Origin: Lentzea guizhouensis | Lineage (GTDB): Bacteria > Actinomycetota > Actinomycetes > Mycobacteriales > Pseudonocardiaceae | NCBI RefSeq assembly: GCF_001701025.1 | Contig: NZ_CP016793.1 | Coordinates: 868,001-932,000 of the forward strand | Direction of reading: 5' to 3' | Length of the DNA stretch: 64,000 nucleotides | Shown: piece by piece, positions 2,826 to 58,789 of the stretch | Layout of the letters: every line of letters begins with the position of its first letter | How positions within the stretch are numbered: position 1 is the stretch's first letter | Position numbers and translations under genes: made by a program | Notes under the pieces: generated by a model | What the model saw: only the letters and a program-made list of their open reading frames with translations | What the model was told of the DNA's origin: nothing | The model's database searches: none

Positions 2826-8225
<5,400 letters not shown>

Positions 8226-57050: not shown

Positions 57051-57059
57051 CGGCAACCG

Positions 57060-57133
57060 TCGGGGCGACAGGATTTGAACCTGCGACCCCCCGCTCCCAA
57101 AGCGGGTGCGCTACCAAACTGCGCCACGCCCCG
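57060..57133 (-). tRNA. tRNA-Pro (anticodon TGG)
   Basis: 74 nt on the minus strand: acceptor CGGGGCG / CGCCCCG, D-arm, anticodon stem CCCGC/GCGGG with loop TTTGGGA (anticodon TGG, reads CCA), T-loop GTTCAAATC and discriminator A. CCA is not encoded. Confidence 0.95.
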
Positions 57134-57196: not shown

Positions 57197-57270
57197 GCGG
57201 GCGTAGCTCAATGGTAGAGCCCTAGTCTTCCAAACTAGCTACGCGGGTTCGATTCCCGTCGCCCGCTCCA
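57197..57270 (+). tRNA. tRNA-Gly (anticodon TCC)
   Basis: 74 nt including the encoded CCA. Acceptor GCGGGCG / CGCCCGC, D-arm GCTC...GAGC, anticodon stem with loop CTTCCAA (anticodon TCC, reads GGA), T-arm GGGTTCGATTCCC, discriminator T. It lies 63 nt from the divergent tRNA-Pro. Confidence 0.95.
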
Positions 57271-57276
57271 CACAGG

Positions 57277-57315
57277 AACCGGAGTGTGTCCGCCGAAACG
57301 CGGATCACTCCGGTT
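57277..57315 (+). terminator. Hairpin after tRNA-Gly
   Basis: AACCGGAGTG / CACTCCGGTT with a nearly matched inner part (TGTCCGC / GCGGAT), 7 nt after the CCA end. Confidence 0.7.
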
Positions 57316-57457
57316 TCGCCGTTCCAGGGGTCCCTCCTCAGCGGGTCGTGACCGCAGGCCGTTCGGCGATGTCCAGTTCTTGGCCTGCTTTTGGCATCGA
57401 CCGCGTGCGTCAACCGTCAATAGGCTCGTCTCACTTCAGGTGAGGAGCTTCACACCC

Positions 57458-58030
57458 ATGCCCCAGATCTTCGTCAGCTACCGGTCTGACGACGAACCCA
57501 CCGCCGCGGTGCTGGTGCACCGGGAACTGGGCGCCCACTTCGGCGCCGAAGCGGTGTTCCTCGACGGCGCGGCCATCCCGCCCGGCACCGACTACACCCG
57601 TGCCCTCCTGGAGGGCGTGCGCACGGCGAAGGTGCTGCTGGTGGTGATCGGCCCCCGCTGGCTCGAGGCGCGGGCGCCTGGTGGCGGCAGGGCGCTCGAC
57701 CAGCCGGGCGACTGGGTGCGCGCGGAGATCGCCGAGGCGTTCCGCTGCGGGCTCACCGTGATCCCGCTGCTGGTCGGCGCGGCCGCCCGGCTCGGGTCGG
57801 CCCCGCTGCCCGCCGACGTCGCGGCCCTGGCTCGGTGCCAGGACCTGCGGCTGCGGCCGGAAGACGCGGAGTACGACCTCCGCCGGCTGGTGGCGGAGCT
57901 GGAAGCGCTCGGCCTGCGCGCTGCCCCGGCGGCGGGTCCCGAGCGGAACGGGCAGGTGTCGATGCGGGCCACCGCGACCGGCCACAGCCGGGTCTACCAG
58001 GCAGGCGGCAACCAGGTGATCAACGAATGA
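57458..58030 (+). CDS. TIR-domain protein with C-terminal RVYQA motif
   Basis: 190 residues. A TIR domain at about 1-150: IFVSYRSDD opens it (BB-loop region around FLDGAAIPPGTDYTRALL follows), and DWVRAEIAEAF carries the likely catalytic Glu90 of TIR NAD-hydrolases. The last 22 residues leave the TIR fold and form a tail of the pattern ATGHSRVYQAGGNQVINE. ATG at 57458 has a GAGGAG site. The stop overlaps the next gene (ATGA). TIR enzymes commonly deplete NAD in antiphage defence; a partner with the same tail motif is encoded next. Confidence 0.88.
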   Translation: MPQIFVSYRSDDEPTAAVLVHRELGAHFGAEAVFLDGAAIPPGTDYTRALLEGVRTAKVLLVVIGPRWLEARAPGGGRALDQPGDWVRAEIAEAFRCGLTVIPLLVGAAARLGSAPLPADVAALARCQDLRLRPEDAEYDLRRLVAELEALGLRAAPAAGPERNGQVSMRATATGHSRVYQAGGNQVINE

Positions 58031-58073
58031 GGATGAACGGACGGGCGTCCGGGCGCGGACGGGTCTACCAGGC
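57989..58073 (+). repeat. Direct repeat joining the TIR and membrane-protein genes
   Basis: CGGGTCTACCAGGC occurs at 57989-58002 and again at 58060-58073, 71 nt apart. Each copy encodes RVYQA in the frame of its own gene, so the protein motif is duplicated at DNA level. Confidence 0.85.
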
Positions 58074-58515
58074 GTACGGGGACCAGCACTTCAACGGCGT
58101 GCACGAGCACAAGCACGACCACGACGACAACGACTTCAACGGCCTCTTCCTGGGCCGCGGACCCGGCCGGCTGGTGATCGTGGTCGGCATGGCCGTCGCC
58201 GCCTTCGGATTCGTGGGATGGGCCTCGATCATCTTCGGGTCCTGGCACCGCAAGGGGCCGTCGGACGGAGAGTCGATGCTGGGCGACGTGCTGCCGTCCG
58301 GCCTGCCGATCGGCGTCGTGTACTTCATCGGCTTCGGCCTCGGTGCCGTGCTCGTGCAGATCGGGTCGTCGATGGCCAAGGCTGCGGCCAGGAACGGCGG
58401 CTTCCTGGGCCACCTCGTGGTCGCCGTCGTGCTGCTGGCCATCGTCGGCGTGGCTGCGGCCACCGTGCTGGCGGGAGCCGGCTGGGACGCGGTCGCCCCC
58501 GACTTCACCCGCTGA
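58027..58515 (+). CDS. Three-helix membrane protein with N-terminal RVYQA motif
   Basis: 162 residues. Residues 3-23 repeat the tail motif of the TIR protein (RVYQAYGDQHFN core; 11 of 21 positions identical without gaps). Residues 26-37 are an acidic, histidine-rich linker (HEHKHDHDDND). Three hydrophobic helices follow (about 48-71, 94-116, 128-150). ATG at 58027 overlaps the TIR stop by 4 nt, so expression is coupled. No known family recognised. Probably a membrane partner or inhibitor of the TIR protein. Confidence 0.85.
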   Translation: MRMNGRASGRGRVYQAYGDQHFNGVHEHKHDHDDNDFNGLFLGRGPGRLVIVVGMAVAAFGFVGWASIIFGSWHRKGPSDGESMLGDVLPSGLPIGVVYFIGFGLGAVLVQIGSSMAKAAARNGGFLGHLVVAVVLLAIVGVAAATVLAGAGWDAVAPDFTR

Positions 58516-58789
58516 CCGCAGCACTGTGCTCACACGGAGGCAATGCCCATCTGACCGCAGTGATGCGTTGGCCGCTCGATCTCGTCCACGACCGCCGGGT
58601 CGCGGGCCGGGTCGGTTTTCGCAACGATGTCGGGAGTGACCAGGTGGAATGCGTGAGTCTGCCGTACCGGATCGGTGGCAGGTGGAGGTGCTCACCGAGA
58701 CCTTGCGGGCGATGCGAGGTGCTGGCGTTGCTCGACCTGTGTTGTGACTGGGCACGGAAGACCCTGCTGAGAGAGGACGCGGTGAACGC
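58516..58789 (+). other. Interval with a short doubtful ORF before the VOC gene
   Basis: A 76-residue frame (58563-58793) starts with ATG and ends by GTGA overlap with the VOC start. Its first half has odd composition (many Arg, Cys and Trp) while its end (EVLALLDLCCDWARKTLLRE) looks coded. Part of another frame (DRWQVEVLTETLRAM) is also protein-like, so a frameshifted relic is possible. CTGACCGCAG occurs twice near 58512 and 58552. Not a confident gene. Confidence 0.35.

Follow-up and report, generated by a model that had tools for sequence, protein, structure and literature searches.

A short motif shared by a TIR protein and an overlapping membrane protein in Lentzea guizhouensis: a candidate NLR-less, membrane-seated variant of BASS-type signalling

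The TIR/membrane gene pair and its shared motif

The window, a 64,000-nucleotide stretch of the Lentzea guizhouensis genome (contig NZ_CP016793.1, positions 868,001 to 932,000), carries on its plus strand a gene for a TIR-domain effector (57458..58030, 190 aa, with a match to Pfam TIR_2), which is overlapped by 4 nt by the gene for its membrane partner (58027..58515, +, 162 aa). The TIR protein bears at residues 169-189 (MRATATGHSRVYQAGGNQVIN; 57962..58024, +) a motif that returns at residues 3-23 of the membrane protein (MNGRASGRGRVYQAYGDQHFN; 58033..58095, +), both copies being placed by the motif alignment and by a profile made from sequences outside the window. In the translation of the membrane protein the motif is followed by a His/Asp-rich linker (GVHEHKHDHDDNDFNGLF; 58096..58149, +) and then by three predicted membrane helices (58177-58233, 58300-58356 and 58414-58470, spanning 58177..58470, +), which correspond to hydrophobic segments at residues 51-69, 92-110 and 130-148 as called from Kyte-Doolittle averages rather than by a trained predictor. 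The two motif copies also contain a 14-nt direct repeat, CGGGTCTACCAGGC, at 57989..58002 and 58060..58073 (+). The original prediction had described just this layout, namely a TIR tail repeated over 21 residues as the head of the overlapping gene, a direct repeat within both copies, a His/Asp-rich linker and three membrane helices, and each of these features was recovered, the helices as three hydrophobic segments by Kyte-Doolittle only.

The two segments align without gaps over 21 residues with 11 identities and a BLOSUM62 score of 52, which none of 3,000 shuffled tails and heads reached (maximum 46), while the best score among 32 same-strand neighbouring gene pairs of the window, as listed by a simple gene caller, was 33; the pair itself is missing from that list on account of the overlap between its ORFs as called. 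The exact 14-mer occurs on the plus strand of the window at 57989 and 58060 only and is absent from the other strand of the window, and the pattern VYQAxG[ND]Q has two matches in the 9,997,872-bp host genome, both in this pair, with none for the reversed-pattern control. On the strength of the alignment, the shuffles, the 14-mer in the window and the pattern counts in the genome, the match between the tail of the TIR protein and the head of the membrane protein is confirmed as real. Furthermore, a profile made from eight motif sequences from outside the window placed the two ORFs (E=1.6e-9 and E=5.9e-7) well ahead of the third of the 492 window ORFs, at E=1.4, so that the motif can be assigned to a wider motif family without circularity. 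The locus thus has the arrangement of a BASS pair as far as the motif and the genes go, that is, a matched short motif at the C-terminus of an effector and the N-terminus of its partner, encoded by overlapping genes.

A search of the host genome for further carriers of the motif ended with seven matches at E<=10; the window pair came first, at 1.5e-11 and 6.0e-11, and the third match stood at 0.45. No third convincing motif carrier was found among the 150 of 395 first-look candidates scored, a sample in which weak carriers could be missed. An NLR acting in trans through the motif was also considered and rejected, as among these scored candidates only the window pair lies below E=0.1 and the third and fourth matches show no NLR by eye.

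The pair forms the content of a cassette (57271..58525, strand not assigned) between a tRNA-Gly gene (57197-57270, +), itself preceded by a tRNA-Pro gene (57059-57133, -), and a glyoxalase-type gene. In a same-genus sample of 13 genomes drawn from a larger group, the glyoxalase-type gene is present in all 12 other genomes searched and has a tRNA-Gly gene within 1.5 kb upstream in 11 of them; by blastn (E<=1e-3) the stretch 57271-58525 has no counterpart in the 1.5 kb that precede this gene in any of the 12, and similarity to these genomes resumes at about 58525-58775. As the stretch is unmatched in the 12 same-genus genomes, the pair seems to have entered a tRNA site by insertion or by replacing what stood there, such as would be expected of a defence-type cassette. 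Its GC fraction is 0.713, that of the window 0.691. Beside the cassette, at 58525-58775, lie the remains of a regulator-like gene, presumably HxlR-like, which is open in the same-genus relatives.

Relatives of the motif, the TIR protein and the membrane core

A scan of 394 genomes of the class with the pattern YQAGx[ND]Q gave 25 matches in 23 genomes as against 17 for the reversed control, which is modestly above chance, and led to proteins ending in RVYQAGRDQHI whose neighbours start with the same segment, and so to loci with P-loop partners. A motif profile of 23 positions, made from ten sequences of which two are the window's, then found matches at E<=0.1 in 64 of 386 genomes of the family and in 31 of 221 of the class, with scores computed for part of the first-look candidates; chance probably accounts for many of the weakest. 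We examined 47 loci, namely six around pattern matches (five of which had supplied sequences for the profile), 40 around profile matches, picked mostly by E-value as a part of the full match list, and the window. When a pair was defined by a C-terminal motif at E<0.02 and an N-terminal motif at E<=0.05 within 400 nt, 27 of the 47 loci, including the window, contained one. The other 20 showed no pair by these limits, though a partner is visible by eye in some of them (L185, L206), and in one (L108) the contig ends at that point.

In 23 of the 27 pairs the motif joins a small protein or a TIR protein to an N-terminal partner with a P-loop, as judged by a simple pattern that may match by chance in long proteins. 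Pfam was run on three of these 23 partners and identified two as nSTAND1 (L169 and L175, E=6e-121 and 7e-111) and the third (L197) as NB-ARC/AAA with TPRs. The original prediction of a matched effector/partner motif with a membrane protein in the place of an NLR is supported by these counts, since the window partner is one of the four without a P-loop (with L104, L193 and L203) and has no Pfam match. This suggests, on comparison of the sequences, that in the window the membrane protein may hold the place of the P-loop protein with which similar TIRs are paired elsewhere. The helices alone do not set it apart, because at least one hydrophobic stretch was marked by the same crude scan in 18 of the 23 P-loop partners, and a His run after the motif likewise occurs in two P-loop motif proteins (L096, L097). 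Among the other loci, three carry the C-terminal motif on proteins that look by eye like nucleotide cyclases, with P-loop partners (L176 8931-9656, L178 4839-5702 and L171 9101-10153); the one in L176 has no Pfam match. In another (L188 4502-12732, +, G315:C2) three P-loop genes with the N-terminal motif surround a small C-terminal-motif protein with two TM segments.

Of the three other P-loop-free partners, that of L193 is a protein of 651 aa with neither a predicted helix nor a Pfam match. In L104 (5194-6756, +, G773:C96) a 146-aa C-terminal-motif protein precedes a partner of 371 aa, in which the motif lies close to the N-terminus and is joined by two TMs and a long charged stretch resembling a coiled coil. 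In L203 (G551:C65) a 180-aa C-terminal-motif protein (7353-7895, -) is followed by a 383-aa partner (7356 down to 6205, -) that has the N-terminal motif at E=0.03, a single TM and a C-terminal domain of large size, an arrangement reminiscent of a receptor whose motif faces the cytosol; a similar TM protein comes after it. Neither the L104 nor the L203 partner has a Pfam match, and a vWA domain, suggested for the latter by its likeness by eye, was rejected as no Pfam match appeared even at E<=10. Kinship with the TM core of the window protein was rejected for both, the core profile giving E=1.2 and 0.48 and blastp E>=7. Thus three membrane proteins among which the core profile and blastp detect no kinship use the motif, in three of the 27 pairs.

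The TIR protein matches Pfam TIR_2 at E=2.2e-11, its 44.7 bits exceeding the cutoff of 28, and its 17 PDB matches at E<=0.01 are all to SARM1, the best at about 1e-5. Its DWVRAE aligns with DWVHKE of SARM1, the last Glu of which we take to be the catalytic E642, and W86-x3-E90 corresponds to W-x3-E. Three TIRs from other loci that also end in the motif, with the YQA core kept in their tails, are 49% (L175), 52% (L202) and 40% (L208) identical to it, and W86 and E90 are invariant in all four. With a TIR domain and the Glu of W-x3-E in place, the protein is a putative TIR NADase effector. The partner of the L175 TIR is the nSTAND1 protein, encoded by a divergent gene 57 nt away, and that of the L202 TIR is a P-loop protein by pattern, while the L208 TIR has no motif-bearing N-terminal partner within the pairing limits. 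In L208 (5875-9137, +) the TIR with its C-terminal motif, a kinase-like TM/beta-propeller protein and a small third protein lie in one run, and the small protein, two genes on from the TIR, has by eye a related C-terminal segment.

Assignment to a known defence system was tried and rejected, since the matches from PADLOC and NCBIfam were all weak and of the TIR type, those of NCBIfam far below cutoff. Of the Thoeris models, ThcB4 scored 25.2 bits against a cutoff of 220, which dismisses a ThcB TIR, and ThsB stood at E=0.0035 and 14.5 bits with no curated cutoff given. The TIR had no match at E<=0.001 among phage sequences; TIR matches were obtained in six plasmid records, and in the five of these that were examined the motif profile found nothing below E=0.07; in one of the five (L214) the TIR frame is broken up. 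One of these loci, on plasmid p1 of Streptomyces sp. BHT-5-2 (L212 4001-6741, +), shows by eye a matched tail and head of another kind, the TIR carrying HTGHGDIY in its tail and the adjoining protein HTGSGHIY near its start, which differ from the window motif.

The membrane protein gave no match at E<=1 in Pfam, PADLOC or NCBIfam, has no P-loop by pattern and shows no recognisable sensor domain; its N-terminal motif does not stand on an NLR-type NTPase as in BASS. Its close relatives were sought in genome contigs, by a search that reaches close relatives only and may omit very near genomes, and none was kept; the lone match, in a Clostridia MAG (L209), covered residues 26-72 only and was set aside. 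No plasmid matched at E<=0.01, and the exact TIR/membrane pair is a single example in the sequences searched. A profile of the TM core alone, with the motif left out, at E<=0.001 found members in 30 of the 390 genomes searched in the family and in 5 of the 394 in the class, the host genome included in both. Most of these relatives have two helices, and the net charge after helix 2 lies between +3 and +14 in the 25 two-helix relatives scored, the largest value coming from a mis-framed fused ORF (L063), and is +2 in the window protein; a fragment (L069), a protein with three segments and +3 after the second (L070) and one with four segments (L072) fall outside this simple count. By the positive-inside rule this charge places the N-terminus, and with it the motif, on the cytosolic side, a prediction that we infer for the window protein from these sequences.

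Nineteen of the 26 relatives at E<1e-5 adjoin a small protein that shares with them a segment ahead of helix 1, as in L049, where VNIGPGQQYVAGRDQH stands beside INIGPGEQHVAGRDQY. The 19 are far from being 19 independent cases, because 15 of them come from two genera (11 from g15 and 4 from g16), L051, L052, L068 and L075 belonging to four further genera. It may be noted that the similarity score by itself does not discriminate the weaker partners, whose scores of 45-57 bracket the 50 of an out-of-frame ORF (L057), and that they were accepted on the ground that a common core returns in them at one position. The remaining seven (L056, L063, L064, L067, L069, L070 and L072) have no motif partner, and in some of them the gene looks broken. 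None of the 19 partners is a TIR; they are small, downstream and carry the motif at the N-terminus, whereas the partner in the window is an upstream TIR. The expectation that the membrane protein always stands beside an effector is therefore borne out in part, a motif partner being present in 19 of 26 relatives and wanting in seven, and a TIR in none of the 19. The TM core thus goes with pairing by a motif as such, and in the window it is found together with the NLR-type motif and a TIR.

In several relatives the motif is preceded by an FHA domain, for which the two proteins scanned gave E=3.4e-20 and E=2.1e-18. These FHA–motif–TM proteins and the small proteins of about 120-140 aa that share their motif (L049-L076, e.g. 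L049 5519-6721, -) apparently form an unnamed two-gene system. The small partner could not be equated with DUF5955, which matched one of four partners scanned, just under cutoff. A homologue with a third helix from the same genus as the host (L072) has neither the motif nor a TIR neighbour, and a three-TM relative (L070 5912-6508, +, G256:C1) has a different short N-terminal motif-like segment (VSGPVHGNVVQAHTV) with no adjoining partner seen.

Proposed mechanism and alternatives

We give a slight preference, on balance, to the reading that the two proteins are an effector and its trigger linked by a short homotypic motif of the BASS type, the membrane protein replacing the NLR-type NTPase. The TIR protein would be a cytosolic NADase, inactive alone, and the membrane protein would present its motif at a cytosolic N-terminus ahead of the three membrane helices. 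On a trigger, for example a membrane disturbance during infection, the membrane protein may cluster or change state, upon which the clustered motifs would stack in an amyloid-like manner and template the tail of the TIR protein, the signal passing from membrane to TIR. The TIR domains would then assemble and consume NAD+, leading to growth arrest or death and so, possibly, to defence. That the membrane protein may stand in the place of a receptor is suggested by the same tag linking such enzymes elsewhere to NLR-like receptors, and we favour it as the trigger because its motif is at the position of the P-loop protein, no NLR with the motif was seen among the host-genome candidates scored, and the TIR keeps its Glu.

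It is hardly credible that the shared segment is a matter of chance or a simple 14-nt DNA duplication devoid of meaning for the proteins. A 14-nt direct repeat is indeed present, but the similarity extends over 21 residues, beyond the repeat, and was equalled in none of the 3,000 shuffles; a chance repeat is ruled out by these shuffles, the pattern count in the genome and the non-window profile, and refuted by the recurrence of the same motif in pairs in other genomes. We also hold it very unlikely that the pair is a decayed or shuffled, non-working cassette in which a TIR that lost its former NLR has ended up, at a tRNA site, next to a motif protein with which it has nothing to do. The absence of the stretch upstream (1.5 kb) of the glyoxalase-type gene in all 12 same-genus genomes, the remains of a replaced gene next to it and the failure to find a close relative of the membrane protein among genome contigs and plasmids would fit such a history, but both ORFs are intact with a 4-nt overlap, both motif copies score strongly on the family profile and the Glu of the TIR is kept.

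Two further readings accept the motif and assign the membrane protein another role. Both proteins could be effectors, a BELL-like membrane-damaging executioner and a TIR NADase, recruited through the motif by a receptor encoded elsewhere. Most of the BASS effectors described are of the BELL type, a small domain of helices that include a membrane helix (PMC7889193), and the L208 run, with its TIR and, across the kinase-like membrane protein, a small protein whose C-terminal segment appears related by eye, is of a similar make. However, no third convincing carrier emerged from the 150 of 395 host-genome candidates scored (the third at E=0.45), and the motif of the downstream gene is at the N-terminus, the position of the P-loop protein in most pairs, so that we regard this reading as unlikely. 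Alternatively, the membrane protein may be an anchor or brake that through the motif keeps the TIR protein at the membrane, either inactive or in position, to be freed, in the manner of an antitoxin system, on loss of the protein or of the membrane potential. The overlapping genes with the TIR first and the small three-helix protein with no recognisable sensor are what an antitoxin-like arrangement might look like; in 23 of the 27 pairs, though, it is a P-loop protein that bears this motif, and for such pairs the published model is activation by templating, which makes a brake quite improbable in our view.

The pair may stand for something wider, namely a class of bacterial receptors that sit in the membrane, need no NLR and activate killers in the cytosol (TIR, BELL-like) by templating an amyloid-type motif, with the window, L104 and L203 as three independent inventions on a motif shared with NLR-type NTPases. 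We put this forward tentatively, as a possibility that we would sooner doubt than assert. Were it true, amyloid-type bacterial immune signalling would be separable from NLRs, and the motif would be an exchangeable plug connecting sensors of either kind, NTPase or membrane protein, to one and the same killer. Membrane receptor, motif and TIR would then follow a logic resembling animal TLR–TRIF–RHIM signalling, and the 190 and 162 residues of the window pair might provide a minimal system for membrane sensing, motif templating and activation of a TIR NADase. It would also predict that searches restricted to the neighbours of NLRs miss part of such systems.

Comparison with known systems

The nearest known systems are the NLR-associated bacterial amyloid signalling pairs (BASS), which were reportedly described by Dyrka et al. 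(2020, J Mol Biol). Like the window pair, these have adjacent or overlapping genes and a matched motif at the C-terminus of the effector and the N-terminus of the partner, and in related genomes the window motif itself serves to pair proteins with partners of the nSTAND1/NB-ARC type. According to PMC7889193, the N-terminal motif of BASS is on the NLR and the C-terminal one on the effector, which is sometimes a TIR; BASS1-10 are treated in PMC8086366 and PMC12261475. The window differs in that the partner is a P-loop-free membrane protein of 162 aa and not an NLR, and we therefore set the pair apart from BASS, though it may work alike, because the defining NLR was looked for and found wanting. 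Identity of the motif with BASS3 was considered and is unlikely, because a published BASS3 peptide, reported to form amyloid, reached -1.4 bits on the motif profile, while the second peptide taken from print, of the BASS3/BASS3-like pair, drew no score from it. No description of an NLR-free membrane partner of such a motif was found among the titles and starts of abstracts listed, a body of text with subscription papers and preprints mostly outside it, which is weak evidence of novelty.

The FHA–motif–TM proteins with their small partners have in common with the window pair a homologous membrane core, a motif before helix 1 and, in 19 of 26 cases, a motif-sharing neighbour; they differ in having mostly two helices and, in several cases, an FHA domain, and in a partner that is small, downstream, with an N-terminal motif and in no case of the 19 a TIR. 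The proposed mechanism would work like TRIF/RIPK signalling through the RHIM and like the fungal HET-S/HELLP amyloid signalosomes, in which a short motif propagates its fold from receptor or adaptor to effector. In the EAD-based bacterial conflict systems a terminal homotypic module likewise couples effectors such as TIR to a core, but the EADs are folded, mostly helical domains (PMC8195603) where the window has a motif of about 21 residues. Taken together, the best reading of the sequences is that the pair would be an NLR-less, membrane-seated variant of BASS-type signalling.
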